Virus record (IMG/VR): IMGVR_UViG_3300010397_000017
Location: 1-49,294 of that record
Length of the DNA: 49,294 bases
Origin: a virus
Direction: 5' to 3' (one strand)
In this document: piece after piece, positions 1,926-42,157 of the stretch
How positions within the stretch are numbered: position 1 is the first letter of the stretch
How the letters are laid out: each line of letters starts with the position of its first letter
The notes under the pieces: generated by a model
Databases searched by the model: none
Seen by the model: only the letters and a program-made list of their open reading frames with translations
Told to the model about the DNA's origin: nothing
Position numbers and translations under genes: made by a program

Positions 1926-1981
1926 CAACAATGCCTCTAGGAGCTCATTAGAGCCTCTTAGGGGTGTTTTTTATTGTTGTT
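1924..1981 (+). terminator. Rho-independent terminator after the first early operon
   Basis: The stem pairs GCCTCTAGGAGCTC (1933-1946) with GAGCCTCTTAGGGG (1951-1964), with G-U pairs and one bulge, and is followed by TTTTTT (1967-1972). An outer repeat AACAACAAT / ATTGTTGTT (1924-1932, 1973-1981) lengthens the structure. If the early transcript is antiterminated (see boxA features), this is where readthrough would matter. Confidence 0.75.
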
Positions 1982-2046
1982 TGGCATCTACCTACAGACA
2001 TTAATAGAAAACGCCTGTAAAGCTGTTTAAATCAATCTGCAATTAT

Positions 2047-2219
2047 TTGAGAGTATACGTAAGGGTCATTCGAGAATTTCATTCTCTCATTCCCTCTTAC
2101 GATGTTTCTAGTATTAATACTGTTACAGTAATTATCCCTTACATGCTAAGCGCCCGCATTCGCTTATGTAAGCTAGTATCTATTTTTTAACCGTTTTGTT
2201 ACATTTAGGAGCTAAAATT
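2047..2219 (+). promoter_or_regulatory. Structured 5' leader before the amide-ligase operon
   Basis: Between the terminator and the gene at 2220 lie about 240 non-coding bases dominated by inverted repeats. One is a long hairpin at 2058-2102: CGTAAGGG pairs with CCCTCTTACG and encloses GAGAAT-TTC-ATTCTC. Next is a 12-bp perfect palindrome AGTATTAATACT (2110-2121). A second hairpin at 2138-2172 pairs CTTACA..TAAGCG with CGCTTA TGTAAG. I see no convincing sigma-70 promoter, so these may be operators, a phage-sigma promoter region or an RNA leader. TTAGGAG at 2206-2212 is the ribosome binding site for the next gene. Confidence 0.5.
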
Positions 2220-3944
2220 ATGGCTAAATACGCTGTTGGTGATGTCTTGCGTTGCACGTACGATAAGTACGGAAAGATCAAGAAAGATCAAATTGTAACC
2301 GTTGATGAGGTACGTCCTAATAAAGAGGGTTACAAATTCAAGGAAATTATCAATCTCGGCTATTGGTATGTAGGTGAATTCTTTGAGCCGGTAGAAGCTG
2401 ATGTTGTACGTCTTCGTGTTCTTGAGGGTATTGGTGTACTGCGTAAAGGTTCTATTGTCACCGTCAAGAAGGAACATGCTACAACGTTCCTGTTGAATGA
2501 GCATCCTGGTAAGCTGTACAAGAAAGAACGGTTTGAACGTATTGGGGCCAAAGCGGCTGAGGCAAAAGCCGAAGACGCTATCACGAACAATGAGCCAATT
2601 AGAGTTGGTGACAAAGTTTATGTGATTAAGAAAGAGGGCGATAATTGGGTTCCTGATATGGATAATAGTGTTAATGATGGGGTTGCTTATGAGGTGTTAG
2701 AAGTACTTCAAGCGGTTCATGGTAAAGTCATCAGAATTAAAACCCCAATTAATCGTTGGTATCTTGAATCGTGTCTCTCTAAGGTAGCTCCAATTCCAGC
2801 CCCTCGTCCATTGAAAGTGGGGGATAAGGTTATTGCTGTTTCAACAGAGGTGTCTTTTAAAAAGCATGGCCCATCTGAACACATGGTTGCTGCCGTTAAA
2901 AATAAGGTGGTTCTCACCGTCCAATGTTTGAATAGAAAATCCATTGGACATGTCCAGATGGAAACTGATGGTGCCAATGATCTTTGGTGGAATTCTAATT
3001 GGGACATTAGTGATTTGGTATTTGCTGATGGCTCTCCAATTGAGGGAGGTGCTCCTGTTAAAGGGGCTACCAAGGCCCCTAATAAGCCCATAGAGCCTCC
3101 AAAGAAGAAAGAACTACCCGATATCTACAAAGAGCTTAACAAAGCCTCTGGGGACTCTCTAAACGATTGGATTGTGCTTCACAAGGATAAGGAAGAATAC
3201 ACAAAGTATTTCAATGCTCCTTGCTTTGCTCAATTTAATTACATGAAGGGTCCAATTGAGCGTCTTGTTGTTAGTTTGAAGAATGCACGTAACGGTTATA
3301 AAGTGTCCTCTAACAATCAAGAAGCATTTGAGCAATATGTGGATTACATCTACAACCGTTCCCCTTGGGCAGATTGTTTCATTAACAAGAAAGATATTAA
3401 GCAAGTGCTGGATGAAGGCTATGAGCTCAATCCTGAATTTGGTATCTCCCGTCTCGTAGGAGCAGCTATTGCCATCCGTGACGGTTATGAATATCAATCC
3501 CGTCTCGTTGTGTTCAAGCATTTCGTAGAAGAAGGATTCTCTGAGGATGTTGCTCATCTTCTGGCTTTCTGCCTAACGTCCAATAATGGTGATGGATTTA
3601 CCATTAGTGGTATGAGTAATGGGCATACAATCTTTGATGGGGGTTTTGTAGCAGAGGAGATATTCAAGTTCTATCGTGAAGGATATTTCCTTGACGTAGC
3701 TCTGAATGAATCCCCTATTAAAGATGGCATTAAGGGTAATTATCTTGTTAGCAAGGCCATTGCAAGTTGGAATGGTAAGAGCATGTATCAAGCTGATTCC
3801 ACTGATCCATCTAGCCTGAAAACTTTCATTACAAATAATGTAGAGAAAACTGTTAAAGGTGCTGGCTTTAATCGTGTAGAGCTGGTGTCCATTGAAGCAG
3901 CAAATAAGCTCGCTGCTATTATTCAAAAGAAACTGGAGAAATAA
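2220..3944 (+). CDS. Multi-SH3-like domain protein, 574 aa, first gene of amide-ligase operon
   Basis: ATG 2220 was chosen because TTAGGAG precedes it by 7 bases; an upstream in-frame start lacks one. The N-terminal half is built from repeated beta-barrel-like units with a VGD-V/KG-IVTV signature (YAVGDVLRCTYD, RKGSIVTVKKE, IRVGDKVYVIKK, LKVGDKVIAVSTE), which resemble SH3/KOW folds. A Pro/Lys linker (about residues 283-300) leads to a helical C-terminal half with no recognised motif. The next gene starts at the base after its stop. Its position at the head of a run of ligases and amidotransferases suggests a scaffold, substrate-binding or accessory role; that is inference. Confidence 0.75.
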   Translation: MAKYAVGDVLRCTYDKYGKIKKDQIVTVDEVRPNKEGYKFKEIINLGYWYVGEFFEPVEADVVRLRVLEGIGVLRKGSIVTVKKEHATTFLLNEHPGKLYKKERFERIGAKAAEAKAEDAITNNEPIRVGDKVYVIKKEGDNWVPDMDNSVNDGVAYEVLEVLQAVHGKVIRIKTPINRWYLESCLSKVAPIPAPRPLKVGDKVIAVSTEVSFKKHGPSEHMVAAVKNKVVLTVQCLNRKSIGHVQMETDGANDLWWNSNWDISDLVFADGSPIEGGAPVKGATKAPNKPIEPPKKKELPDIYKELNKASGDSLNDWIVLHKDKEEYTKYFNAPCFAQFNYMKGPIERLVVSLKNARNGYKVSSNNQEAFEQYVDYIYNRSPWADCFINKKDIKQVLDEGYELNPEFGISRLVGAAIAIRDGYEYQSRLVVFKHFVEEGFSEDVAHLLAFCLTSNNGDGFTISGMSNGHTIFDGGFVAEEIFKFYREGYFLDVALNESPIKDGIKGNYLVSKAIASWNGKSMYQADSTDPSSLKTFITNNVEKTVKGAGFNRVELVSIEAANKLAAIIQKKLEK

Positions 3945-4568
3945 ATGAAAAAAGTATTTATCATTAATGGCAGTATGGCTTATGTTCAGCTGTTCCAAGA
4001 GTTGGGATATGCTATTACGAAAGATATTAACCAAGCTGATCTGGCTGTATTCACTGGGGGTGAAGATGTAACCCCAGCTTACTACGGTGATAAAGCCCAC
4101 CACTACACCTACAACAATCCTCGCCGGGATGGTGAGGAAAAGAATCTGTTTGACCTGTTGAAGAAGAATGGTGTTCCTTGTGTAGGCATCTGCCGAGGTG
4201 GTCAGTTCCTGAATGTAATGTCTGGTGGTCGTATGTATCAGCACGTAGACAAGCATGCTACAGCACGTGGTCATAGTATCACTGACTTGGAAACTGGTGA
4301 TGTAATTCATGTCTCCAGCACACACCACCAGATGATGCTCCCTGTAGGCAATTACAAATTGATTGCTACAGCTTCTCTTGGTGGTTTCCGTGAATGGTTT
4401 GATGGAAATGTGGCTAAGAAAGACATTTCCAAAGAAGACATTGAAGTGGTTTATTATCCGGAAACTAATTGTCTGTGCTTCCAGCCCCATCCAGAATTTA
4501 ATGGGGCTGAATATGAGCAGATGAAAGTTTATTTCAAACATCTGCTGAATAAATACCTGAACGTTTAA
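3945..4568 (+). CDS. Class I glutamine amidotransferase / gamma-glutamyl hydrolase (peptidase C26-like)
   Basis: The 207-residue protein has the C26/PuuD layout: FTGGEDVTPAYYG near residues 36-48, the nucleophile elbow GICRGGQ with Cys83, STHHQ (residues 124-128) where C26 enzymes have NSxHHQ, and QPHPEF with His181 and Glu183 completing the triad. Family members hydrolyse gamma-glutamyl bonds or release ammonia from glutamine. ATG abuts the previous stop (3944/3945). In this operon it could trim a gamma-glutamyl intermediate or feed ammonia to the amide ligases; which one cannot be decided from sequence. Confidence 0.88.
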   Translation: MKKVFIINGSMAYVQLFQELGYAITKDINQADLAVFTGGEDVTPAYYGDKAHHYTYNNPRRDGEEKNLFDLLKKNGVPCVGICRGGQFLNVMSGGRMYQHVDKHATARGHSITDLETGDVIHVSSTHHQMMLPVGNYKLIATASLGGFREWFDGNVAKKDISKEDIEVVYYPETNCLCFQPHPEFNGAEYEQMKVYFKHLLNKYLNV

Positions 4569-4576
4569 AGAACACC

Positions 4577-4652
4577 CTCACCGTAGCTCAGTGGATAGAG
4601 CAGTAGCCTTCTAAGCTATTGGTCGCTGGTTCGAATCCAGCCGGTGAGGCCA
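4577..4652 (+). tRNA. tRNA-Arg (anticodon TCT)
   Basis: All arms fold: acceptor CTCACCG/CGGTGAG, D stem GCTC/GAGC, anticodon stem GTAGC/GCTAT with one G-U pair, loop CTTCTAA giving anticodon TCT, T stem GCTGG/CCAGC with loop TTCGAAT, and encoded CCA. It reads AGA/AGG. It stands alone between the class I amidotransferase (ends 4568) and the ATP-grasp ligase (starts 4672), away from the other three tRNAs, which are in the late arm. Confidence 0.95.
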
Positions 4653-4671
4653 TTAATAATTGGAGAATGAA

Positions 4672-5379
4672 ATGACTCTCTATATTGTCTACCCAAAAGC
4701 CTGTGCTGAATCAGCAGCAATGCTGGCTAGTGCTTTGAAGGCTAAGAAACAATTGTGTTATGGTAATTACATGTTGCTGAATGAGAAAGCAACAGTGTTC
4801 AACTATGGTGTTGGGGGCTATCCTTCTCTGTGTGCTAAGGTTGTTGTGAATGACGGTCAAGCTGTTAATCGTTGTATTGATAAACTCACAACCTTTGATC
4901 TGTTAAAGAAGGCAGGAGTTTCTATCCCTAAGTATTCCACAAAATCCAATGTAGCAGCTAAGTGGGACACCGTAGTGTGTCGTGAGACAGTCAATGGTAA
5001 GGGAAATGAAGGACTGTCTTACTGGTATAAAGGTGATAAGGGAAGTCCAAAAGGACAGCTGTTCACTGAGCATTTTGAGCATGAGCATGAATGGCGTATT
5101 GTTGTATTCAAAGGAGTTGTTGTAGCTCGTTATCTGAAGGTGCGAGATGCTAATGATAAATGGCACTTCCAATTATACACCAAGCAAGGCTTCAAGGATA
5201 TCGATTCTGCTTGTCTAAAGGCTTCACAGGCCCTTCAAATTGATTTTGTGGGGTTTGATGTGCTTGAGAATAAAAAGGGCGTATACGTCGTTCTAGAGGC
5301 TAATAGTGGCCCTGTTATGACGGAAGAAGTTCTTGAATACATCAAGAATTATTTTAAACAATTGAAAAAGGAGAAGTAA
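4672..5379 (+). CDS. ATP-grasp ligase A (RimK-like), 235 aa
   Basis: I chose ATG 4672, preceded by TTGGAG at 6 bases, over the TTG at 4660. The protein has an ATP-grasp layout: N-terminal preATP-grasp region, then VCRETVNGKGNEG (nucleotide-binding strand and glycine-rich loop), FTEHFEHEHEWRIVVFKG, and the metal-binding end DFVGFDVL ... VVLEANSGP with the Glu and Asn expected to hold Mg-ATP. Such enzymes activate a carboxylate as acyl phosphate and join it to an amine. It shares organisation and motifs with the second copy at 9239. The substrate is unknown; a peptide- or amino-acid-forming role fits the neighbours. Confidence 0.85.
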   Translation: MTLYIVYPKACAESAAMLASALKAKKQLCYGNYMLLNEKATVFNYGVGGYPSLCAKVVVNDGQAVNRCIDKLTTFDLLKKAGVSIPKYSTKSNVAAKWDTVVCRETVNGKGNEGLSYWYKGDKGSPKGQLFTEHFEHEHEWRIVVFKGVVVARYLKVRDANDKWHFQLYTKQGFKDIDSACLKASQALQIDFVGFDVLENKKGVYVVLEANSGPVMTEEVLEYIKNYFKQLKKEK

Positions 5380-5381
5380 GG

Positions 5382-6722
5382 ATGTGTGGACTAGTGGGCA
5401 TGGCTGGTGACTTGAATGCGTCACATGAAAAAATTATGAAAGACTTGCTGGTATTTGACACTGTGCGCGGTGTTGATTCTACTGGTGTATGTTATGTAAG
5501 CAAGCATAATGATGAAGTGAAGATTGCTAAACAGATTGGCAATCCTTTTGAACTGTTTGATCAAAAGAGTTTTGACAAGGCTTCTAATGGCTTGCAGAAG
5601 GTGATGATTGGTCACAATCGTTATGCCACTAGCGGGGCTATTAGCCGCTCCAATGCACATCCTTTTGATGTAGGTAAGATTGTTGGTGTACATAACGGCA
5701 CCATCAAGAACAAATGGAATCTCCACAATCATATGGATTTTAAAGTGGACAGTGAAAATTTGTATCACCACATCCAAGAGAAGGGCCTCACTGATATGCT
5801 CGACAAGGCAGATGGTGCTTGGGCTTTAGTGTGGTGGAACAAAGAAGATAAAACTGTTAACTTCCTACGTAATAAGGAACGTCCTTTGTTCTTTAGCTCC
5901 TCCACCGATGCTAAGGGTGAAGCCGATGGTAAGACAATCTTCTGGGCTTCTGAAGCTTGGATGCTAACTGTTGCGCTATCACGAGCTAATATTGCCCATT
6001 CCAAACCAGAAGAACTGGAAGTGAATGTTCATTTTTCTGTACCTGTAGAGAATGGAGGTAAGCTGGGCAAGGTTGTTGCCAAGAAAGCTGTCCCCACCTT
6101 TCGTGACCCCTATGAAGGCCACTGGGCAAATGCATACCACCAAAGGTCTCAGCAAACAGGAACGCAGGGAAGCCAAAGCACTACGACGTCTACAGCATCT
6201 AATGTCACGGTGATTAAGTCTGATTCTCAGTCTTCTGGCTTTGATCGTTTTTATTTGAAGCGTTGCAATATTCTCTTTGAATTGCTTGATGAGAAAACCG
6301 ATGAATATGGGAAGAAATTCATTCCATGCTTTGACGGTAAAGAGCCATTCAAAGAAATCCGTCTCTATCCAACCTACGATGCTTCTCCTCTGTGGGGCTT
6401 TATTGGTGGTGAGGTGCAAGGAGACATTGAGCTGTGGAGTCCTCACAAAGAAGTTGGTAAGGGGCATTATACCGTTAGGCCTTCTTCTGTCCGTTGTCTT
6501 GTAATGCCAGAGCATAGCGGAGCAGCTAAAGAAGAAGAAGCTTGGACAGACAATCACGGTGTAACATACACCAAATCTGAATTTGATAAGAAGTGGAAAG
6601 CTTGTGGCTATTGTTCTAGCCCTCTTATCTTTGGGGATAAGAACAAGGCTTCTACTAGTGGTGAATGTTTCTGTCCAGATTGCTGTAATCATCCAGAAGT
6701 AAAATCTTTTGTTAAATTTTAG
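5382..6722 (+). CDS. Class II (Ntn-hydrolase) glutamine amidotransferase with C-terminal zinc-ribbon-like region
   Basis: The protein begins MCGLVGM, so Cys2 becomes the N-terminal nucleophile after Met removal. RGVDSTG, GHNRYATSG and GVHNGTI are the Arg-, Asn- and Gly-bearing glutamine-site motifs of PurF/GlmS/AsnB-type domains (residues 1 to about 200). No AsnB synthetase or sugar isomerase domain follows. Instead a long linker leads to a C-terminal region with CGYC and CFCPDCC, likely a zinc ribbon. At 446 aa it is longer than an isolated amidotransferase domain. It probably supplies ammonia from glutamine to a partner ligase in the operon; the coupling is inferred from position. Confidence 0.85.
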   Translation: MCGLVGMAGDLNASHEKIMKDLLVFDTVRGVDSTGVCYVSKHNDEVKIAKQIGNPFELFDQKSFDKASNGLQKVMIGHNRYATSGAISRSNAHPFDVGKIVGVHNGTIKNKWNLHNHMDFKVDSENLYHHIQEKGLTDMLDKADGAWALVWWNKEDKTVNFLRNKERPLFFSSSTDAKGEADGKTIFWASEAWMLTVALSRANIAHSKPEELEVNVHFSVPVENGGKLGKVVAKKAVPTFRDPYEGHWANAYHQRSQQTGTQGSQSTTTSTASNVTVIKSDSQSSGFDRFYLKRCNILFELLDEKTDEYGKKFIPCFDGKEPFKEIRLYPTYDASPLWGFIGGEVQGDIELWSPHKEVGKGHYTVRPSSVRCLVMPEHSGAAKEEEAWTDNHGVTYTKSEFDKKWKACGYCSSPLIFGDKNKASTSGECFCPDCCNHPEVKSFVKF

Positions 6723-6733
6723 GAGAATTTAAA

Positions 6734-7531
6734 ATGAATATCCTCGTTGGTGCTGATCCTGAATGCTTTGTTAAGCAAAATGGTAAATTTGTTTCGGCCT
6801 TTGGTATGATTAAAGGTGATAAGAAGAATCCACAGAAAGTTGCTCGTGGAGCAGTTCAAGTGGACGGTATGGCTCTGGAATTTAACATTGATCCAGCAGC
6901 TACGGAAGAAGAATTCTGCATTAATATTCAATCTGTATATAATCAGCTTAAAGCTATGGTGCCGGGCTATGAAGTTGTAGCCACTCCTGTTGCTGATTTC
7001 TCTTTTGAATATCTGAAGGGACAACCTAAGGAAGCTCTTGAGCTGGGTTGCGATCCCGATTTTAATGCATGGACTGGTGATATTAATCCTCGTCCCGATG
7101 GCAATCGTCCTATGCGTACCGCTTCTGGTCATGTTCATATTGGCTTCACTAACGGGGTTAATCCGGCTGATGGTAATCATCAATACCAATGTAATATGAT
7201 TGGTAAGCAGATGGACTTCTATTTGGGATTGGCTTCTTTGTTCTACGACACAGATGTACGCCGTCGTGAAATGTATGGCAAGGGTGGTGCCATTCGCTAT
7301 AAACCATATGGCGTTGAATATCGTACGCTGTCTAATGTTTGGCTGAACAGTGAAAAACTGATGGCTTGGGTGTTCCGTAATGTACAACGCGGCATGAAAG
7401 ACTTGCTGGAAGGTAAGGAACTGTGCCAGAAGTATGGCGATATTCAAGCTATCATCAATACCAGCAATAAAGATGCTGCAATGAAGATTATTAAAGCAGA
7501 GAAACTGGAGATTCCACATGCCTATTGCTAA
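6734..7531 (+). CDS. Amidoligase, COOH-NH2 ligase type 2 (phiEco32-like)
   Basis: This 265-aa protein shows glutamine-synthetase-superfamily landmarks of the COOH-NH2 ligase type 2 family: GADPECF at the start, QVDGMALEFNIDP (residues 42-54), a CDPDFNAW..NPRPD segment, ASGHVHIGF, and GAIRYKP..VEYRTLSNVW near the C-terminus. The acidic and histidine residues are candidates for the Mg-ATP site, and the Arg for phosphate binding. The family is predicted to form amide bonds between a carboxylate and an amine using ATP. AGGAG (6721-6725) lies upstream. The 3' end overlaps the next gene by 14 bases. Confidence 0.85.
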   Translation: MNILVGADPECFVKQNGKFVSAFGMIKGDKKNPQKVARGAVQVDGMALEFNIDPAATEEEFCINIQSVYNQLKAMVPGYEVVATPVADFSFEYLKGQPKEALELGCDPDFNAWTGDINPRPDGNRPMRTASGHVHIGFTNGVNPADGNHQYQCNMIGKQMDFYLGLASLFYDTDVRRREMYGKGGAIRYKPYGVEYRTLSNVWLNSEKLMAWVFRNVQRGMKDLLEGKELCQKYGDIQAIINTSNKDAAMKIIKAEKLEIPHAYC

Positions 7532-8135
7532 TGCTTCTTTGGATGATTTGGCTCAAATGTTTAACAATAGCCTTGTTATCCATAAGAATAAGCCTATTAA
7601 AATTAATCGTTTTAATAGCAAAACTAATGTGAAAGTGTTTGATTTGGTGTCTCAACGTAATATTGACATTGATGTAGACACTCTTGATTTGAAAGCTCCA
7701 GGTCGTTGCTTTGGCTTTGTAAATTTCATGGATTATGTTATTTATGTTTCTCGTAATCCAGTACGTCGTTATAAAGTTGGTATTTGTCAAGAGAGTGCTA
7801 ACTTCCAAGCTCCCCAGAAGTATATTGATATCCTGCATTCTCCTGATGCCAAACGTGTATATGATTTTACTTGCCCTGAAATTGTAGACACAATTTACAA
7901 TCGTTACCCTTCCATTCCAGAAATGCATAAGCAGATTAAGAATGGCGCTAAGATTGTGGCATTTGATCGTCAGTTTGCTGTTGATCAATTTAATAATGTT
8001 TATTACAAAATGAATAGAGTGGGTAAGCTCAAAGGTTTTGAGTCTATTAATGACATTCAATTTGACAAGGGCTGGGAACATCTAACCGTTTTGCTGGACA
8101 ACAATCATGAAAAAAGTATTCCAATTTTTAAATAA
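7518..8135 (+). CDS. Uncharacterised protein of the amide-ligase operon, 205 aa
   Basis: ATG 7518 has GGAG about 10 bases upstream, inside the end of the preceding gene. The protein shows no signal peptide or membrane segment. A central segment (RNPVRRYKVGICQ) and the C-terminal half look like a mixed alpha/beta domain, but I recognise no family. It overlaps genes on both sides (7531 and 8107), so it is translationally tied to the two amidoligases and may be a partner or substrate-carrier protein; this is inference. Confidence 0.75.
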   Translation: MPIANASLDDLAQMFNNSLVIHKNKPIKINRFNSKTNVKVFDLVSQRNIDIDVDTLDLKAPGRCFGFVNFMDYVIYVSRNPVRRYKVGICQESANFQAPQKYIDILHSPDAKRVYDFTCPEIVDTIYNRYPSIPEMHKQIKNGAKIVAFDRQFAVDQFNNVYYKMNRVGKLKGFESINDIQFDKGWEHLTVLLDNNHEKSIPIFK

Positions 8136-9228
8136 AGCCAAACCTCTGGAAGGTGACGTAGGTATTGAGATTGAATGTGAGGGTAAGAATCTCGGAATTG
8201 TTAATGATAAATATTGGAAAACTGAAGATGATGGCTCTCTGAGGGGTCATTACCCTAATGAACGGGCTGAATTCGTCTTGAAGAAACCAATTGGAATTGA
8301 GAAGGTTAAAGAAGCTGTAGAGAGTTTGAAAGAAGGCTTGCCAGAAGCAAAGCTAAACTTCTCTTATCGCACTTCAGTACACGTTCATGTAAATGTACAA
8401 GACCTAACCAATGAAGAATTGTTGAATTTCATGTACATCTATCTGCTTCTGGAAGAACCGCTGGTTAATTTCTGTGGCCGTGATCGTAAGGGCAATCGCT
8501 TCTGTATGCGTATTCAAGATGCTGAAGGTTTTGTATTCACCTTAGCTCGGGTATTTGAGGGGGGTATTCCTGTAGCTCTGAATGGCTTTAATGAGAACGA
8601 TATTCGTTATTCCTCTATGAATATTGCGTCTTTGCGTAAATATGGCTCTATTGAATTCCGTGCTATGCGTGGTAATATGGATTCGGATTTGATTGAATCT
8701 TGGGCACAAACACTGGTGAATCTGCGGGAATTTTCTAAGAAGTTTAAATCCCCTAAGGAAATTGCTCAGCACTACCAGAAGAAAGAAGCTAAGGAATTCA
8801 TGCAAGAAGCCGTAGGCCATACGTACAATCTCCTAACCTATCCACGTATGGTGAAAGAGATTCAGCGTAGCTTCTCTTTGTCTCTCGATTTGCCATTCTG
8901 TTATAAGGAATATAAAGAACCTGAGAAGGCTGCTCCATTGGAGGAAGATGCTCTTGATGCTACATTTAAAGAGTTTAATCGTTGGAAGATGTGGACTGCT
9001 CATAAATTCCGTGACATGCGTATTAAAGAACGGAAGGTAGATGGTGTGTATATCCAAATGCGTTGGCCAGAAGGACGAGGTGATGATTGGGCAGATGCTG
9101 GATGGGTTATGGATGACTCTCCATATTATGACTTTGTAAATCAATGGGATGCTCGTCGATTGGCTCGTGAAGCCGGTGATGGTCGTGTTCCTATTGCACG
9201 TCCTCGTGCTCCTCGTCGTCCTGCCTAA
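8107..9228 (+). CDS. Amidoligase family protein (second glutamine-synthetase-like amide ligase)
   Basis: The N-terminal 230 residues carry the amidoligase pattern: GIEIECEG, a W.TEDDGSL acidic strand, RAEFVLKKP, SVHVHVNV, and SSMNIASLRKYGSIEFRAMRG, where the acidic and Arg residues would bind Mg-ATP and the acyl phosphate. The remaining about 140 residues are helical and charged and end in an Arg/Pro/Ala-rich tail (VPIARPRAPRRPA). The protein differs from the amidoligase at 6734, so it is not a simple duplicate. The start lies inside the preceding gene. The tail could contact nucleic acid or be a peptide acceptor; that is speculation. Confidence 0.85.
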   Translation: MKKVFQFLNKAKPLEGDVGIEIECEGKNLGIVNDKYWKTEDDGSLRGHYPNERAEFVLKKPIGIEKVKEAVESLKEGLPEAKLNFSYRTSVHVHVNVQDLTNEELLNFMYIYLLLEEPLVNFCGRDRKGNRFCMRIQDAEGFVFTLARVFEGGIPVALNGFNENDIRYSSMNIASLRKYGSIEFRAMRGNMDSDLIESWAQTLVNLREFSKKFKSPKEIAQHYQKKEAKEFMQEAVGHTYNLLTYPRMVKEIQRSFSLSLDLPFCYKEYKEPEKAAPLEEDALDATFKEFNRWKMWTAHKFRDMRIKERKVDGVYIQMRWPEGRGDDWADAGWVMDDSPYYDFVNQWDARRLAREAGDGRVPIARPRAPRRPA

Positions 9229-9238
9229 TGGAGAATAT

Positions 9239-9997
9239 ATGAAAATTTATGCATACAACAATGGCAGTAAATCTGCTAAAGCTCTGGCTGAAAAGCTTAA
9301 CATCAAAATTCTGAAACATGAAGGAAAGCCAATCCGTTTTAAAGGCCCTCTTATTAATTGGGGTAATAGTGGTGACATTAAGCGTCATATTGAATGTGGG
9401 GGTTGTCTCAACCCACCCAATGCCGTTAGGAACGCTGTAAACAAGCTACAGGCGTTTAAATTGATGGAGGCAGGGGTGAGTATCCCCTCCTTTACTGATG
9501 AGCACCAAGAGGCTGTAAAGTGGCTTAATGAAGGTTCTACAATTATTGTTCGTCACAAGCTTAATGGACATAGTGCAGAAGGTTTGGAGATTGTAAATCC
9601 AAATGAGGCAGGTGAACATGATGATTTACCAGAAGCTCCCCTTTACACTAAATATATTAAGAAAGACCAAGAGTGGCGTATTCACGTCTTCCAAGGCAAG
9701 GTGTTCTTTGAACAGCGTAAAGCACGTAAGAAGGACGTTCCTGATGACAAGGTGAATTGGCAAGTACGTAATTTGAATGGTGGATTTATTTATTCTCATG
9801 TCAACGTAGATGCTCCTAAGAACGTTAAAGAGGAAGCAATCAAAGCTGTAGAAGCTCTTGGTCTAGACTTCGGAGCTGTTGACATTCTCACAACTAAACG
9901 AGGAGAAGCATATGTTCTCGAAGTTAACACAGCCTGTGGTCTCGAAGGAACAACCTTGGAGAAATACGCTGAACAGTTTGCCAATCTGGCAGCCTAA
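9239..9997 (+). CDS. ATP-grasp ligase B (RimK-like), 252 aa
   Basis: ATG 9239 is preceded by GGAG (9230-9233); the longer in-frame extension overlaps the previous gene and has no ribosome site. Motifs parallel ATP-grasp A: KLQAFKLMEAGVSIP, IIVRHKLNGHSAEGLEIV (nucleotide loop), YTKYIKKDQEWRIHVFQGKV, and GLDFGAVDIL ... AYVLEVNTACGLEG for metal and ATP. It closes the amide-ligase cluster. Two similar ATP-grasp enzymes in one operon suggest sequential additions or different acceptors. Confidence 0.85.
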   Translation: MKIYAYNNGSKSAKALAEKLNIKILKHEGKPIRFKGPLINWGNSGDIKRHIECGGCLNPPNAVRNAVNKLQAFKLMEAGVSIPSFTDEHQEAVKWLNEGSTIIVRHKLNGHSAEGLEIVNPNEAGEHDDLPEAPLYTKYIKKDQEWRIHVFQGKVFFEQRKARKKDVPDDKVNWQVRNLNGGFIYSHVNVDAPKNVKEEAIKAVEALGLDFGAVDILTTKRGEAYVLEVNTACGLEGTTLEKYAEQFANLAA

Positions 9998-10335: not shown

Positions 10336-10513
10336 AGCTCGCAATGCTATTCACCTCCTACGTGAAGCTCTTGAACACATGAAAGAAGATATGGAGAAGG
10401 GGGTTGTTTCAGCTGCCGCTATCATGGAAGCAGAACGTGTTCTAGAACAAACTAAAACAATCTCCTATGAACTCTCTCAAACACAGATGGCTTATTTGCT
10501 GGGAGGTAAATGA
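10325..10513 (+). CDS. Small helical protein upstream of primase-helicase, 62 aa
   Basis: ATG 10325 (MAIKAR) has GGGAG about 7 bases upstream and overlaps the previous gene by 11 bases; an earlier in-frame start has no such site. The product is almost entirely helical with heptad-like spacing and no motif I recognise. The stop overlaps the start of the primase-helicase as ATGA (10510-10513), so their translation is coupled. Confidence 0.65.
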   Translation: MAIKARNAIHLLREALEHMKEDMEKGVVSAAAIMEAERVLEQTKTISYELSQTQMAYLLGGK

Positions 10514-12144
10514 GTAAGTCTAAATGTATTGAGAAAATCGGGAGTGTACAAATCTTTCAGCAAGAAGATGGCTCTTATGATGCTTTTGACTTTGCTACTG
10601 GTAAATACATTCCCGACCCATATAAGGACAAACCTCCAGGCTATAAACCAGTTGTTATTAAGAAGACACATGAGCAGATTGAAGCAGAGCTGAAAGAAAT
10701 TCAAACATATTCAGTATTTGATTTGCCAGAAAGAAAACTGCGAAAAGAATCGTTAGACTATTTCAATGTTAAAATTGGTGTCTCCGAAGAAGATGGTAAA
10801 ACCCCAAAAGTTCATTACTATCCCTATTTCCGTGAGGGAGAGCTGGTCTCATATAAGGTTAGAATTATTGAAGGTAAACGGATGTGGGTTTTGGGGAGTT
10901 TCAAAGATGTAGATTTGTTTGGCTGGGAACAAGCCAAAGCCACAGGGGGTAAACGTTTATACGTTACAGAAGGTGAAATTGATGCGATTTCGCTCTATCA
11001 AATATTCAAGGATCAGAATAAAAACACTCCGTATGCTGATTACAATCCAGCTATTGTTTCGCTTCCTAATGGTTGCTCTAGTGCTGTTGGTGTTCTTACC
11101 AAGAAGCTGAAAGAGATTAAGGAACATTTCAAAGAGATTGTCCTAGTATTTGATATGGATGATCCGGGTAAGAAAGCAGCAGAGGATGTTGTAAGACTAA
11201 TCCCTGAATGTATAGTAGCTGCTCTCCCCTCTAAGGATGTTAATGATTGTCTAGTGGAAGGTAGGTCAAAAGCCTGCTATAACGCTGTTCAATTTAATGC
11301 TAAACGTCCTAAGAATTCTCGTATTGTCTCAGCATTCGACCTACATGAAGCAGCAAAGGAAATTGCCAAATATGGCTATAATTGGCCATGGCCTTGGGTA
11401 ACTGAGAAGACACGAGGAATCCGTACTGGTGAAACAATTTATATTGGTGCTGGTCAGAAACAAGGCAAGAGTGAAATTGTAAATACTCTAGCAGCTTGGC
11501 TCATGAAGGAATACGGGTGGAAAGTGTTTCTGTGTAAGCCAGAAGAAGCTAATAAAAAATCATACAAGCTTGTAGCTGGTAAACTGGAGGGTAAATTCTT
11601 CCACGATCCTACTAAAGAGTTTGATGAAGAAGCTTATGAACGAGCTGGTGAGATTATGAAGGATAAGCTCTATCTTCTGAATCTCTATCAACACGTAGGA
11701 TGGGAAAGCTTAAAAGCAGATATCCGTGAAGCAGCGGCAGATGGATGTAAAGCTATTATGATTGACCCAATCACCAACCTAACTAACGGTATGGAATCTG
11801 GAGCAGCTAATGTCAAATTACAGGAAATTGCACAGGAGTTGTCCGCAATGGCTCTTGATTTGGATGTCGTTATATTTATTTTCTGCCACCTTAGAAATCC
11901 TGATGCTGGCCCTCCCCATGAAAGAGGTGGAGAAGTTCTTAGCAGTCAATTTGCTGGCTCTCGTGCTATGGCCCGTAGCTGCAATTATATGTTTGGTTTG
12001 GAAGGTAATCGTGATCCGAATCTAGACCCCGATCAACGTAATATGCGTACACTAGTTCTCCTAGAAGATAGGGAATTTGGTGAGGTAGGTAGAATTCCTC
12101 TTTATTGGGATAGAGCTACCGGATTGTTTAATCAAGTTAATTAA
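10510..12144 (+). CDS. Primase-helicase, T7 gp4B-like (TOPRIM + DnaB-type helicase)
   Basis: In 544 aa two domains are seen. The TOPRIM primase core has YVTEGEIDA (Glu154, Asp158) and LVFDMDDPG. The hexameric RecA-like helicase has Walker A GAGQKQGKS (Lys320), Walker B IMIDPITNL, VIFIFCHLRNP and SSQFAGSRAMAR (arginine finger region). The N-terminus lacks the Cys4 zinc-binding domain that full-length T7 gp4A uses to recognise primase sites. It therefore corresponds to the short helicase form, or primes differently. It would work with the polymerase at 12959 and SSB at 15217 at the fork. Confidence 0.92.
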   Translation: MSKSKCIEKIGSVQIFQQEDGSYDAFDFATGKYIPDPYKDKPPGYKPVVIKKTHEQIEAELKEIQTYSVFDLPERKLRKESLDYFNVKIGVSEEDGKTPKVHYYPYFREGELVSYKVRIIEGKRMWVLGSFKDVDLFGWEQAKATGGKRLYVTEGEIDAISLYQIFKDQNKNTPYADYNPAIVSLPNGCSSAVGVLTKKLKEIKEHFKEIVLVFDMDDPGKKAAEDVVRLIPECIVAALPSKDVNDCLVEGRSKACYNAVQFNAKRPKNSRIVSAFDLHEAAKEIAKYGYNWPWPWVTEKTRGIRTGETIYIGAGQKQGKSEIVNTLAAWLMKEYGWKVFLCKPEEANKKSYKLVAGKLEGKFFHDPTKEFDEEAYERAGEIMKDKLYLLNLYQHVGWESLKADIREAAADGCKAIMIDPITNLTNGMESGAANVKLQEIAQELSAMALDLDVVIFIFCHLRNPDAGPPHERGGEVLSSQFAGSRAMARSCNYMFGLEGNRDPNLDPDQRNMRTLVLLEDREFGEVGRIPLYWDRATGLFNQVN

Positions 12145-16951: not shown

Positions 16952-16989
16952 ATGGTGACAAGAAACGGAGGGGAGTGGACAGAAGCTAG
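16783..16989 (+). CDS. RMF/CrpP-like small protein overlapping the exonuclease 3' end, 68 aa, GTG start
   Basis: GTG 16783 has AAGGGAG (16770-16776) at 6 bases. The frame is different from the exonuclease and from the HNH gene it also overlaps. The C-terminal 45 residues fit the ribosome modulation factor pattern AH-GY--G--G---PY---W--GW: AHYEHGYSYGRCG, then HPYYHGT, then SWETGWIDGD. E. coli RMF has the same spacing of GY, PY and W--GW. RMF dimerises and inactivates ribosomes, and CrpP-type relatives occur on mobile elements. A phage copy could act on host ribosomes. The match was made by eye only. Confidence 0.6.
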   Translation: MDDKRASIERATGIVGISIAHYEHGYSYGRCGIGCWNDHPYYHGTNEAESWETGWIDGDKKRRGVDRS

Positions 16990-17347
16990 ATTTAATAGCT
17001 TTGTTAAGAGTGCGCTAAGAGCGGCTAGCCGTAGATGGCCTCCTAAGTATAAATGCCTCTCAGATGCGTTTATAGGCTCTCAGATCAATTTAAAATCAGG
17101 GAGAATGGCTAAGCATTACAAATGTGCTAAATGCCTTGGAGCCTTTCCTAGTAAGGATGTGCAGGTGGATCATATAATCCCTATTATTGATCCGGAAGTA
17201 GGATTTGTAGATTGGAATACAGTTGTGGAAAACATGTTCTGCGAGAAACATAATCTCCAAGTGTTGTGTAAGCCCTGCCATAAATTAAAATCAGATGCTG
17301 AAAAAGCAATTGCTAAAGAAAGAAAGAATGAACGAAAATCAAAATGA
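16952..17347 (+). CDS. HNH endonuclease, 131 aa
   Basis: The zinc-stabilised HNH fold is visible: CAKC at about residues 52-55, VDHIIPI with the catalytic Asp-His pair, then ENMFCEKHNLQVLCKPCH with the second Cys pair, Asn and His. ATG lies directly after the exonuclease stop. It may resolve replication intermediates as T7 gp3 does, degrade host DNA, or be a homing-type nuclease. Its place between exonuclease and nucleotide genes favours a DNA metabolism role, which is inference. Confidence 0.87.
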   Translation: MVTRNGGEWTEARFNSFVKSALRAASRRWPPKYKCLSDAFIGSQINLKSGRMAKHYKCAKCLGAFPSKDVQVDHIIPIIDPEVGFVDWNTVVENMFCEKHNLQVLCKPCHKLKSDAEKAIAKERKNERKSK

Positions 17348-17588
17348 AAACTATCGAGGCTTTAACCTTTTCAATGACATTGGTGATGTTGTCCTTCGCA
17401 ACCGTAATCGGGCCGTTGTGCTATCTAATTTGGCTATTGATCACATGAGTAAGAAAACTAAGGCAATTAGTCCTAAAGGTGCTTCATTGGTTCTAGGATA
17501 TTTCTCTAATATTCCAGAAGAAGACAGGGCTGATGTGCAAGAACGCTTTAAACAACGTATGATTGAAAATGGCTTCCAATTGTCCTGA
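17328..17588 (+). CDS. Hypothetical protein, 86 aa
   Basis: ATG 17328 follows AAAGAAAG and overlaps the HNH gene by 20 bases; the upstream start in the same frame has no site. The C-terminal half reads like a small helical domain (NIPEEDRADVQERFKQRMIENGF). No family is recognised. The next gene overlaps its end. Confidence 0.65.
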   Translation: MNENQNENYRGFNLFNDIGDVVLRNRNRAVVLSNLAIDHMSKKTKAISPKGASLVLGYFSNIPEEDRADVQERFKQRMIENGFQLS

Positions 17589-17841
17589 ATGGATTTTCTA
17601 TTCTCTAATGAGACGACTTATGCAATTTAATAAACAAGTAGCCCCAATCAAGAATACAGAGCCCGAAGTTTGGGCTCTTGTTCAGAAGGATATGGACGCT
17701 AGAAATCAATTTGGTAAAGAGAAATATGGGGTTGGATTGCAGCCTCATAATGGACGGGATGCTCTTCAAGATGCTTATGAAGAAGCTCTTGATTTGTGTG
17801 TATATTTGAGACAGGCTATTTATGAACGTAACGGAGTTTAA
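17569..17841 (+). CDS. Phage protein related to MazG/dATP-dGTP pyrophosphohydrolases (tentative), 90 aa
   Basis: Start ATG 17569 (MASNCPEW) overlaps the previous gene; a TTG six bases upstream is possible. The segment MDARNQFGKEKYG ... GRDALQDAYEEALDLCVYLRQ has the helix-loop-helix layout and paired acidic residues seen in small phage nucleotide pyrophosphohydrolases. It may therefore hydrolyse non-canonical dNTPs. The match is weak and the metal site is not complete by eye. Confidence 0.55.
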   Translation: MASNCPEWIFYSLMRRLMQFNKQVAPIKNTEPEVWALVQKDMDARNQFGKEKYGVGLQPHNGRDALQDAYEEALDLCVYLRQAIYERNGV

Positions 17842-23277: not shown

Positions 23278-25023
23278 TCAAGCAGTTGTCATAAGTTTTC
23301 TTGTATTGCCAGCAGCGTCTCGGATTGTAATATATCCGTTACTTGCAACATCTCCTCCACTAGTATATGTCCCAAAGCGAACAAGTCCAGTGCCTTTTCC
23401 TCCAATCAACAGATCAATATCTGTATCAACACCTTCTGCTCGTAATTGAGGGGCAGTTCCAGAATTCTGTGCATTTACACGTACGTAGTTCTGTCGATTA
23501 TTTCCTAAGAAAACAAATCCATTTCCTTTTCCTTTGAAAGAAACATCAACATCTGTTCCTGTACCAGAAGCAGAATAAGAAACATTTGTGGTAGAAGACC
23601 CTGTAAGGAGTGGGTAGTTTACAGAACCTGCGGTATGTCCAATCTGAGTTTGTGGGCCACCAGAGGTGTTGAAATAGATTTGATTGGCATTGTTTACGTC
23701 TAAGCGTAAATCACCATTACCTGCTAACCTAGCTCCTAAAGAACCACTATTATCCAAATAGGCATATCCATTAGAAGCAGCAAGAGTATTTCCTGTAAGA
23801 GTAACTCCACTGCCTCTAATCATTCCATCAGCAATTCTTTCCTCACCATAACGTGTATTATTATTCGCTACAGCACTGTGGTTTTCAATTGTACCACCGT
23901 CTCTCGATAAGAATCCACTTCCAACATTAGAACTAGAAACACAGGAGAGAGCCCTAACTGTTCCTCCAGATAAGGCAGCAATACCAGCAATATTACATCC
24001 AGAAGCAGAAGAACCAGAGCAATCCATAGACGATCCATATTCTGCTTGGAATCCAAATCCAAATCCATTGGCTACGTCAGAAGCATTATTAGAAACAGCA
24101 TTACGAGCTTGTACAGAAGAGCCTACGAAAGACCAAATACCTACATCACCAGCATTGTTTACAACAGCAGAATCGGCTAGGATGAAAGAACCATTACGAG
24201 CAGCAATGCCGTAATACCAGTTATTCGTTTTCATCTTAGTACCACAGATGATTGTTGCTCCATTATTAGCTAATACGGCAGTGTAATTATTTACTAATGT
24301 AGCTTTAACAGACAGATCAACCATGAACCCATTCAACAGTCCGAATCGATTACCATTTGTACAAGTGATTGCATCAAAGGTTGGGGGATTCGGGCCACGG
24401 AGAATACAGTTGTCTGGTGTTGTCGTATTCCCTAGCAGTTGAATTTTATCCCCGTATAAATGATTTAAATTAATTCCGCTGGAAAGATTGTATGTTCCAT
24501 CAGCAACCTGAATAATTACAGTTCCGTGGATAATCCAATTCTGAATTGCGGAGAATGCTGATTGAATTGTGGAAAATTGAGAAGGAACATTTAACGTAAT
24601 TGTTTGTCCTGGAACCACAACCAATCGTTTACCAGTTGCTGCTGTTACGGCATTAGCTACAGAATTGAATTGAGAAGTGTAATATTCCCTACGAAGTTCT
24701 GTCTGAACATCTGAAAGAATAGCTCCAGATTCCGCTTGTGTAAATCCAACAAGAGAGGAGCCATCTCCTACAGCTAAATCTGGAAGAATGGCATCTGTTA
24801 AATCACTTAATCGAGCCGGCTCGTTAGGAGAAATGGGGGCTGGTAAATTAAGGACACGTTTACCATTCATGTCCAGATTTGTAATCATACCGTTAGGCTC
24901 TCCTACCGGATTATCCCGGTAGAGAACCTTGTTCTGTAATTCATCTTCAATCTTTTGGAAATTGGTATTAATCTTATTTAGATTAAATCCTCCTGCCACA
25001 TTGTCTAAAACTAATTTAGTCAT
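23278..25023 (-). CDS. Tail spike/fibre 2 with shared N-terminal anchor and beta-helix, 581 aa
   Basis: Residues 1 to about 80 closely match the N-terminus of the upstream spike at 25036 (both contain KIEDELQNKVLYRDNPVGEP and LNLPAP-SPNEP), so both probably attach to the same site on the tail. The middle has repetitive Asn/Gly/Ser-rich turns typical of a right-handed beta-helix (from STIQSAFSAIQNW through SSASGCNIAGIAALSGG). The end (TIRDAAGNTRKLMTTA) resembles fibre trimerisation ends. There is no S74 chaperone. It is a likely receptor-binding or polysaccharide-active spike. Confidence 0.82.
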   Translation of the reverse strand: MTKLVLDNVAGGFNLNKINTNFQKIEDELQNKVLYRDNPVGEPNGMITNLDMNGKRVLNLPAPISPNEPARLSDLTDAILPDLAVGDGSSLVGFTQAESGAILSDVQTELRREYYTSQFNSVANAVTAATGKRLVVVPGQTITLNVPSQFSTIQSAFSAIQNWIIHGTVIIQVADGTYNLSSGINLNHLYGDKIQLLGNTTTPDNCILRGPNPPTFDAITCTNGNRFGLLNGFMVDLSVKATLVNNYTAVLANNGATIICGTKMKTNNWYYGIAARNGSFILADSAVVNNAGDVGIWSFVGSSVQARNAVSNNASDVANGFGFGFQAEYGSSMDCSGSSASGCNIAGIAALSGGTVRALSCVSSSNVGSGFLSRDGGTIENHSAVANNNTRYGEERIADGMIRGSGVTLTGNTLAASNGYAYLDNSGSLGARLAGNGDLRLDVNNANQIYFNTSGGPQTQIGHTAGSVNYPLLTGSSTTNVSYSASGTGTDVDVSFKGKGNGFVFLGNNRQNYVRVNAQNSGTAPQLRAEGVDTDIDLLIGGKGTGLVRFGTYTSGGDVASNGYITIRDAAGNTRKLMTTA

Positions 25024-41908: not shown

Positions 41909-41984
41909 TGGAGCAGGATGCCGGAAGTCGAACCGGCTACTGTAACTTGGAAGGATACTGTGTTGCCACTTACACCAATCCTGC
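41909..41984 (-). tRNA. tRNA-Gly (anticodon TCC), atypical
   Basis: Acceptor GCAGGAT/ATCCTGC, D arm GTGT/ACAC, anticodon loop CTTCCAA (TCC), and encoded CCA are clear. Two defects are visible: a T-T mismatch in the anticodon stem (GTATC/GTTAC) and an 8-base T loop TTCGACTT between GCCGG and CCGGC, where 7 is standard. It would read GGA. It may be functional but weak, or decaying. Confidence 0.8.
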
Positions 41985-41990
41985 ATTGTA

Positions 41991-42074
41991 TGGTAGGAGA
42001 AGAGGGACTTGAACCCTCAAGCCATAAGCGACGGATTTTAAGTCCGGTGTGTTTACCAATTTCACCACTCTCCC
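41991..42074 (-). tRNA. tRNA-Leu (anticodon TAA)
   Basis: Acceptor GGGAGAG/TTCTCCT with G-U end pairs, short D stem GTG/CAC, anticodon loop CTTAAAA (TAA), long variable arm typical of Leu tRNAs, T stem GAGGG/CCCTC with loop TTCAAGT, and encoded CCA. It reads TTA. It sits 6 bases from tRNA-Gly and 7 from tRNA-Thr, so the three are probably cut from one late transcript. Confidence 0.92.
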
Positions 42075-42081
42075 GTTGTTC

Positions 42082-42157
42082 TGGTGCTGTTAGTAGGAAT
42101 CAAACCTACGACCTGATGCTTACAAGGCAACTGCTCTTTCTACTGAGCTATAACAGC
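42082..42157 (-). tRNA. tRNA-Thr (anticodon TGT)
   Basis: Acceptor GCTGTTA/TAACAGC, D stem GCTC/GAGC, anticodon loop CTTGTAA (TGT), T stem GTAGG/CCTAC with loop TTTGATT, A discriminator and encoded CCA. One T-T mismatch occurs in the anticodon stem. It reads ACA. First tRNA of the leftward array. Confidence 0.93.

Follow-up and report, generated by a model that had tools for sequence, protein, structure and literature searches.

The eight protein genes and single tRNA gene at positions 2220-9997 of the window (the whole 49,294-nucleotide stretch of viral DNA that was analysed) almost certainly represent the conserved phage amidoligase cassette of phiEco32, PaP3, RIO-1 and PA11, carried here by what looks like a Zobellviridae-type podovirus. 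A PF14395 ligase, an Amidoligase_2 protein, a RimK-like ATP-grasp enzyme and a class II amidotransferase were found in one operon within a replication-gene neighbourhood. More than 300 phage records contain these genes, either in this order or permuted, for example those of PA11, CW02, CVT22, RIO-1, PaP3, tf, phiEco32 and phiM6. The cassette and its proposed role at the host cell wall were already known, and guesses about its product date back to 2009. New in this study are the membership of two 'hypothetical' proteins (A and F), the link to a gamma-glutamyl cyclotransferase, the dispensability of gene C and the essentially phage-only occurrence of ligase E. The genes and the leader preceding them are:

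Leader, 1926..2219, + strand: non-coding, upstream of A; ends in a strongly folding stretch with the A ribosome-binding site
A, 2220..3944, + strand: 574 aa
B, 3945..4568, + strand: C26 / class I amidotransferase-fold enzyme, gamma-glutamyl hydrolase-like
tRNA-Arg (TCT), 4577..4652, + strand: between B and C; ARAGORN and Rfam
C, 4672..5379, + strand: RimK-like ATP-grasp ligase, optional paralogue of H
D, 5382..6722, + strand: class II (Ntn) glutamine amidotransferase
E, 6734..7531, + strand: GS-fold COOH-NH2 ligase (PF14395)
F, 7518..8135, + strand: 205 aa, unannotated core component
G, 8107..9228, + strand: GS-fold amidoligase (PF12224 Amidoligase_2)
H, 9239..9997, + strand: RimK-like ATP-grasp ligase

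The cassette takes up 7,778 of the 49,294 bases (15.8%), in agreement with the estimate of about 16% in the initial annotation, whose operon-like layout of eight co-directional + strand genes was also borne out. That annotation had described many of the genes as overlapping, which in our gene calls holds for E/F and F/G but for no other pair, and it had overlooked the tRNA gene at 4577-4652. For C, we used the ATG at 4672, which is preceded by a ribosome-binding site; a TTG lies further upstream at 4660. The start of H at 9149 in a mechanical ORF list was spurious and was replaced by 9239. The leader of A contains a terminator-like hairpin (1953-1965), folds strongly as RNA (z = -4.1) and is partly conserved in two other loci (L002 and L003). 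Since the conserved element was common to these two loci only, we rejected a general phage promoter upstream of A. A primase/helicase gene (10510-12144) adjoins the cassette, a neighbourhood shared with PA11, PaP3 and RIO-1.

Across 125 loci, the gene order was A-B-(C)-D-E-F-G-H or B-E-F-G-D-H. E was present in all 125 loci, D in 122, G in 121, an ATP-grasp gene in 118, F in 117, B in 102 and A in 78. The recurrence of this gene set in order excludes chance. A minimal set would comprise D, E, F, G and H together with either B or the cyclotransferase. The order of the window was matched in phiM6, PA11, CVT22 and CW02 and was permuted in PaP3, tf and phiEco32; comparison of gene content and order thus upheld the relationship to phiEco32-type clusters that had been suggested initially. 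Hosts in the records of cassette phages include Pseudomonas, Escherichia, Klebsiella, Citrobacter, Vibrio, Salinivibrio and Sinorhizobium, all Gram-negative. The window phage has family matches for head, terminase and polymerase, and, among named isolates, those closest to it in E belong to the Zobellviridae; it looks like a new podovirus of this type.

A gamma-glutamyl cyclotransferase gene (PF06094, 6e-24) was located beside the cassette in 30 of the 125 loci and adjoins it in CW02, PaP3, phiEco32, RIO-1, tf and phiM6. This recurrence indicates gamma-glutamyl chemistry. No match to the cyclotransferase was found in the window, which we counted against the envelope-precursor reading given below. 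The gene is variable rather than defining, as PA11, a listed member of the cassette group (PMC5498523), also has no match.

Family matches agreed with all enzyme classes assigned initially (C26-like, class II amidotransferase, two amidoligases, two RimK-like ATP-grasps). We scored catalytic-residue conservation across approximately 50 relatives and found the active sites intact, as had been read from the window. D (PF13522, 1e-17; PDB relatives: N-domains of PurF and GlmS) retains C2, R80, N105-G106 and D123, and its variable C-terminal half ends in a Cys-rich zinc-ribbon-like motif. G (PF12224, 2e-10; phrog_7469, 8e-72) retains E21-x-E23, H92-x-H94 and E183-x-R185. In E (PF14395, 7e-7; phrog_3815, 4e-91), residues G6-D8-E10, H133-x-H135 and E195-Y-R197 are conserved; the motif GCDPDFNAW is invariant, and the invariant residues were held in 27 diverse relatives. 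Relatives of E occurred in 317 phage records, and a scan of 84,980 genomes returned seven contigs only. All seven come from metagenome bins and most have cassette-like neighbours; they are therefore probably phage. We rejected a host-derived cassette in bacterial genomes and conclude that ligase E hardly occurs outside phages.

B matched PF07722 (1.6e-19) and phrog_7218 (2e-55). Its catalytic residues are C83, H182 and E184 (100% conserved in 42 sequences), which leaves Cys83 in place and corrects the His181 and Glu183 given earlier. In the PDB search, the nearest solved relatives were Lin1909 (3fij) and a probable glutamine amidotransferase (7d4r) with its sisters 7d50 and 7d53; 'amidotransferase' is for this reason a fold-level name only for B. 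The entries 7d4r, 7d50 and 7d53 may be SpuA-type gamma-glutamyl-polyamine hydrolases.

Both ATP-grasp proteins matched phrog_2599 (C: 2e-32; H: 3e-85). H, whose relatives in the PDB are CdnC, RimK and LysX-type ligases, has all active-site residues (K99, R135, E175/R177, D245 and E258-x-N260, numbered on the 9149 frame), and C keeps all of them, including those for ATP and Mg. In a tree, the genes at the C position formed a clade of 20 members (support 0.999). C and H occurred together in about 12 of the 125 loci, and some phages retain just one of them. The second ATP-grasp gene is thus an optional paralogue of H; the initial reading that both ligase folds are duplicated is right for the presence of two ATP-grasps here, but the duplication is not a fixed feature of the cassette. 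The tRNA-Arg gene was detected by ARAGORN and by Rfam (tRNA, 71.6 bits) and has the same position in approximately ten relatives. In the clade of the window, it might supply aminoacyl-tRNA as a substrate.

The two 'hypothetical' proteins A and F belong to the cassette. Relatives of A lie directly 5' of B in 78 of the 125 loci, and A coevolves with D, F and G. In an alignment of relatives, the N-terminal part was variable and the C-terminal domain (about 250 aa) was conserved; within this domain, a Cys, an Arg and a Glu are invariant and a His nearly so. The SH3 repeats initially ascribed to A had no Pfam support (best: DUF4537, E = 0.05); the conserved part is the C-terminal domain. The only family matches of A were PHROGs without an assigned function (best: phrog_34254), and its structural model (pLDDT 91.9) gave no PDB fold match, nor was there a usable PDB sequence match. 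F, which always adjoins E or G and was found in all nine named phages, had phrog_11055 (unknown function) as its sole family match. Its model (pLDDT 92) comprises an SH3-like N-terminal region and a second domain with the motif R-x-P-x-R-x4-G. The model had no whole-fold match in the PDB, where no usable sequence match was found either, and in BFVD it matched only uncharacterised phage proteins. Some F matches bore a partial resemblance, spanning about 50-100 residues, to barrels of the PWWP, EF-P or eIF5A type, which was too weak to assign a function. A may contribute further catalysis or hold the substrate, and F may act as a scaffold or specificity protein. A complete pathway exclusive to phages, with an amide-linked product new to chemistry, A as a new enzyme and F as its carrier or specificity subunit, is doubtful.

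The cassette had been singled out initially as the best candidate for an undescribed system. We rejected this reading, since descriptions of the cassette already exist in papers and in annotated records. The literature attributes the cassette to Iyer 2009, cited here by way of later papers, and to Hardies 2013. Citing the latter, PMC5498523 names a 'Peptidoglycan Modification Cassette' in RIO-1, phiEco32, 7-11, PA11, tf, MR299-2, LUZ24, PaP3 and CW02 and proposes peptidoglycan modification and superinfection exclusion, as do descriptions from phiM6 (PMC6256558) and OM43 phages (PMC10580990). In the literature searched, we found no published experiment on the product or on a wall change caused by the cassette, consistent with the initial statement that phiEco32-type clusters lack a known product. 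In the relative HP1, the cassette is expressed immediately after infection (PMC7082346); the published omics data of this phage gave expression timing only and no clue to a metabolite. In PaP3, expression of ORF32-48, the cassette genes among them, is highest at 10-30 min (PMC4707531). A JBD44 metabolism paper was unrelated and was discarded as a clue.

We infer chemistry, target and benefit from the observed gene content, order, intact active sites and co-conservation. Our preferred reading, held tentatively and at somewhat less than an even chance, is that gamma-glutamyl or iso-amide bonds are made and trimmed on a host envelope-peptide precursor in early to middle infection. D, and perhaps B, would hydrolyse glutamine to ammonia and glutamate. 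The GS-fold enzymes E and G and the ATP-grasp H (or C) would spend ATP to form gamma-glutamyl or iso-peptide amide bonds. B, together with the cyclotransferase in many relatives, would cut gamma-glutamyl groups off, so that the pathway would both add and trim. The most likely target would be the peptidoglycan stem precursor, altered in the cytoplasm, and the altered stem might block superinfecting phages or tune lysis. About one-sixth of the small genome of this lytic phage is given over to the cassette, which several phage lineages on diverse Gram-negative hosts retain; it must therefore pay well. Counting against an envelope target, the cassette set contains no Mur-ligase, UDP-substrate or membrane component, and the solved proteins closest to B are, judged by their names, not wall enzymes. 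Moreover, the receptors of phages are as a rule located outside the peptidoglycan, which counts against exclusion of phages by a stem change.

A somewhat less likely reading is that the ligases build a soluble gamma-glutamyl metabolite (a gamma-glutamyl amine, polyamine or short isopeptide) that is recycled by the C26 enzyme and the cyclotransferase, with nitrogen supply, DNA-packaging counter-ions or counter-defence as the benefit. The combination of ligase, C26 hydrolase and cyclotransferase resembles the PuuA/PuuD and BtrJ/BtrG pathways, B has 3fij and the possibly SpuA-type 7d4r, 7d50 and 7d53 as its closest solved relatives, the tf annotation names its cyclotransferase BtrG-like, and the cassette has no membrane or secretion parts. 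A role in nitrogen metabolism has been proposed for a phage with these genes (PMC10945688). But two GS-fold ligases, an ATP-grasp, two amidotransferases and two unknown proteins exceed the needs of a simple conjugate, and no such metabolite has been reported. Protein tagging, comparable to the glutamylation of ribosomal protein S6 by RimK, is in our view unlikely; here the ligases would label a phage or host protein, and the remaining enzymes would edit the label. H and C are RimK-like, the SH3-like region modelled in F could present a target, and in some phages, R2K-type ATP-grasps are predicted to act as peptide ligases on translation factors (PMC7824862); yet the cassette and its flanks yielded neither a conserved substrate tail nor a conserved peptide gene, and two amidotransferases would not be needed.

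Modification of phage DNA bases, one of the targets suggested initially, is very improbable. Attachment of amino-acid groups to DNA bases is known from phages, and the window encodes thymidylate synthase and ribonucleotide reductase, though these are ordinary. DNA of tf, however, is cut by RsaI, HpaI, EcoRV, SmaI and HaeIII (PMC3517423), and among about 20 further window proteins scanned there was no hydroxymethylase, base kinase or base glycosyltransferase; both results disfavour DNA modification. The cassette also sits on phages with otherwise unrelated genomes. Hardly credible is a graspetide-like ribosomal peptide cyclised by the ATP-grasp enzyme. Such ligases make these peptides elsewhere (PMC8939145), but no small precursor gene recurred in the loci. 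Of the additional small-ORF families, the commonest was present in only 8 of 125 loci and looks like a small SH3/KOW-like protein, and the others are mostly homing endonucleases or unrelated. Taken together, A, F, the cyclotransferase link and the dispensable ATP-grasp narrow the chemistry of the cassette.

PuuA/PuuD serves polyamine use and BtrJ/BtrG butirosin; both are gamma-glutamyl pathways with a ligase and a C26 hydrolase or cyclotransferase. Compared by fold class, these bacterial systems share with the cassette a GS-type or ATP-grasp ligase with a C26 enzyme or cyclotransferase. They differ in gene content: the cassette has two GS-fold ligases, and its A and F have no counterparts there. 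The phiEco32 and LUZ24-PaP3-tf clusters, predicted by Iyer 2009 as relayed in later papers, share the E, F, G, D, H set (PaP3 E is ~39% identical to window E), but D follows G, a cyclotransferase is present and there is no C26 match. The RIO-1 / PSA-HP1 cassette (Hardies 2013; Duhaime 2017, PMC5498523) shares D, E, G and H in the order of the window, beside the primase/helicase, and RIO-1 also has F and an A-like gene. In contrast to the window, which has a C26 enzyme and no cyclotransferase, RIO-1 has a cyclotransferase and no C26 match; the window adds a second ATP-grasp and the tRNA-Arg inside the cassette. Sinorhizobium phiM6 (PMC6256558), otherwise a different phage type (marine HMO-2011-like), has the order A-B-D-E-F-G-H-(second amidotransferase)-cyclotransferase-primase, the second amidotransferase and cyclotransferase being extra. 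Unlike the window, the Zobellviridae PA11, CVT22, CW02 and Klebsiella Asterion have no ATP-grasp gene at the C position, and the latter three carry extra small genes between cassette members; all four share the A-B-D-E-F-G-H order, with E 53-57% identical.

Eight closely packed protein genes occupy the plus strand of the 49,294-base IMG/VR virus record at window positions 2220-9997. Searches of Pfam and PHROGs confirmed this cluster and the enzyme families that the initial annotation had recognized, and a tRNA gene that it had overlooked lies inside the cassette:

Gene A, plus strand: large protein, PHROGs of unknown function the only matches
Gene B, plus strand: C26 fold
tRNA-Arg(TCT), window 4577-4652
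Genes C and H, plus strand: RimK-like ATP-grasp ligases
Gene D, plus strand: class II amidotransferase
Gene E, plus strand: GS-fold ligase, PF14395
Gene F, plus strand: core protein, PHROGs of unknown function the only matches
Gene G, plus strand: GS-fold ligase, PF12224

The pairs E/F and F/G overlap. Comparison with ~50 relatives showed that B, D, E, G and the ATP-grasp pair C and H all keep the expected catalytic residues, so the active-site loss named beforehand as counting against an amide-bond operon was not seen at the sequence level. Upstream of A, a non-coding leader of 294 bases (window 1926-2219) contains a terminator-like hairpin, after which it has an unusually strong fold (z = -4.1); a short leader element, AAGCTAGTATC...TTTTTT, is kept at the equivalent site in the two nearest relatives only.

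We assembled 125 E-bearing loci, drawn from named phages, IMG/VR and contigs of bacterial genomes, and mapped the families in them by HMM. As the loci were retrieved through E, its own count is uninformative, and related phages are over-represented in the counts for D (122/125), G (121/125), ATP-grasp (118/125), F (117/125), B (102/125) and A (78/125). The dominant arrangements were A-B-(C)-D-E-F-G-H and B-x-E-F-G-D-H. F, which is without annotation in any record, almost always adjoins E or G, and an HMM detected it in each of the nine named phages examined, including RIO-1, PaP3, tf and phiEco32. A lies directly 5' of B and was also detected in phiM6 and, weakly, in RIO-1. For A, D, F and G, the pairwise distances intercorrelate (r 0.74-0.82; partial r 0.62-0.76 controlling for primase distance), and the ATP-grasp gene gave the lowest correlation (partial r 0.22-0.33). 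Being based on simple identities, these values are support rather than proof that A and F are parts of one evolving unit, with ATP-grasp as the more exchangeable member.

Position-C genes form a 20-member clade (support 0.999) separate from H. The two occur together in the window and in L002, L003, L005, L014, L021, L065, L071, L083 and other comparison loci. Most phages carry H alone and some C alone; a single ATP-grasp step is thus the rule. Anbu, a peptidase of HslV-type fold, is associated in bacteria with ATP-grasp genes; Klebsiella phage Asterion has an annotated HslV-family peptidase in its replication module (L057 23766-24245).

The model of F (pLDDT 92) had no PDB match at E <= 0.001, the best partial likenesses being PWWP and EF-P/eIF5A barrels; in BFVD it matched uncharacterised phage proteins, CW02 best. 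The C-terminal domain of A (pLDDT 91.9) had no match in PDB; in it Cys26, Arg111 and Glu115 are invariant and Ser72 and His160 near-invariant (alignment numbering).

tRNA-Arg (TCT or CCT) makes up 13 of the 16 tRNA genes that lie within cassettes, compared with 20/68 in the rest of these loci (Fisher p = 0.0003). tRNA genes, Arg above all, are enriched inside cassettes. The carriers are the window (4577-4652), L002, L003, L007, L008, L014, L059, L067, L071, L075, L020, L114 and L028; the anticodon is CCT in three loci and otherwise TCT, and the gene nearly always lies just 3' of the C26 gene. Because most carriers are closely related, the enrichment may go back to a single insertion after B or to a few. 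Near the head genes, away from the cassette tRNA, lies a second cluster of tRNA genes (Gly, Leu, Thr; window 41909-42157, minus strand). HNH endonuclease and unknown/kinase-like PHROG fragments occur among the replication genes (window 17295-17588, 17563-17841 and 16952-17347), and HNH genes interrupt the cassette in several relatives, e.g. phiM6. In two adjoining tail-fibre/spike genes (window 23278-25023 and 25036-27504, minus strand), the first 60-77 residues match the same PHROGs, suggesting that two different receptor-binding proteins share an anchor.

What was observed directly is the gene content and order, the intact active sites and the co-conservation. We infer that three ligases would form amide bonds, that the two amidotransferase-fold enzymes would supply ammonia/glutamate or trim gamma-glutamyl groups, and that A and F would assist. 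Expression in relatives is early or middle (PMC7082346; PMC4707531). Tentatively, the cassette may act on an envelope precursor. That its product is instead a soluble gamma-glutamyl metabolite seems rather unlikely, and protein tagging is distinctly improbable. DNA modification we consider very improbable indeed, since five restriction enzymes cut the DNA of the cassette phage tf (PMC3517423).

A gamma-glutamyl cyclotransferase gene (PF06094; in PaP3 orf42, with 6e-24) adjoins the cassette in CW02, PaP3, phiEco32, RIO-1, tf and phiM6 and in 30/125 loci; none was found in the window. Across the 125 loci, many of them incomplete, 19 had both the C26 protein and the cyclotransferase, 11 the cyclotransferase only, 83 C26 only and 12 neither, an overlap that is only partial. 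The PaP3-type enzyme matches 209 phage records, and its organism groups are largely the cassette-bearing ones among the matches listed. The association had been noted earlier for HP1 (PMC5498523). phiM6 has two class II amidotransferase genes, of which the second, a divergent one (L128 2916-4022), lies between H and the cyclotransferase gene.

With the E profile, a bacterial and archaeal scan found seven contigs among 84,980 genomes, all metagenome bins with mostly cassette-like neighbours; at that sensitivity E, in which the motif GCDPDFNAW is invariant, is essentially a phage enzyme. Among 50,697 phage records, tblastn gave 317 matches for E, 312 for H and 328 for G, including PA11, CVT22, CW02, PaP3, tf and Klebsiella phages, and annotated records carry this set of genes, order kept, beside a primase/helicase gene. 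The points of interest are the putative product of this widespread cassette and its two new core parts, A and F. The initial interpretation holds for the enzyme families and active sites; its view of an undescribed system does not, as the same set is annotated in other phages and named in print. It is the conserved 'Peptidoglycan Modification Cassette' of RIO-1, phiEco32, 7-11, PA11, tf, MR299-2, LUZ24, PaP3 and CW02 (PMC5498523) and the 7-ORF module for peptide bonds of phiM6 (PMC6256558), and in OM43 phages wall modification was ascribed to amidoligase and GATase (PMC10580990). Given these matches and published names, the window cassette is a further example of an already described cassette with a putative product.
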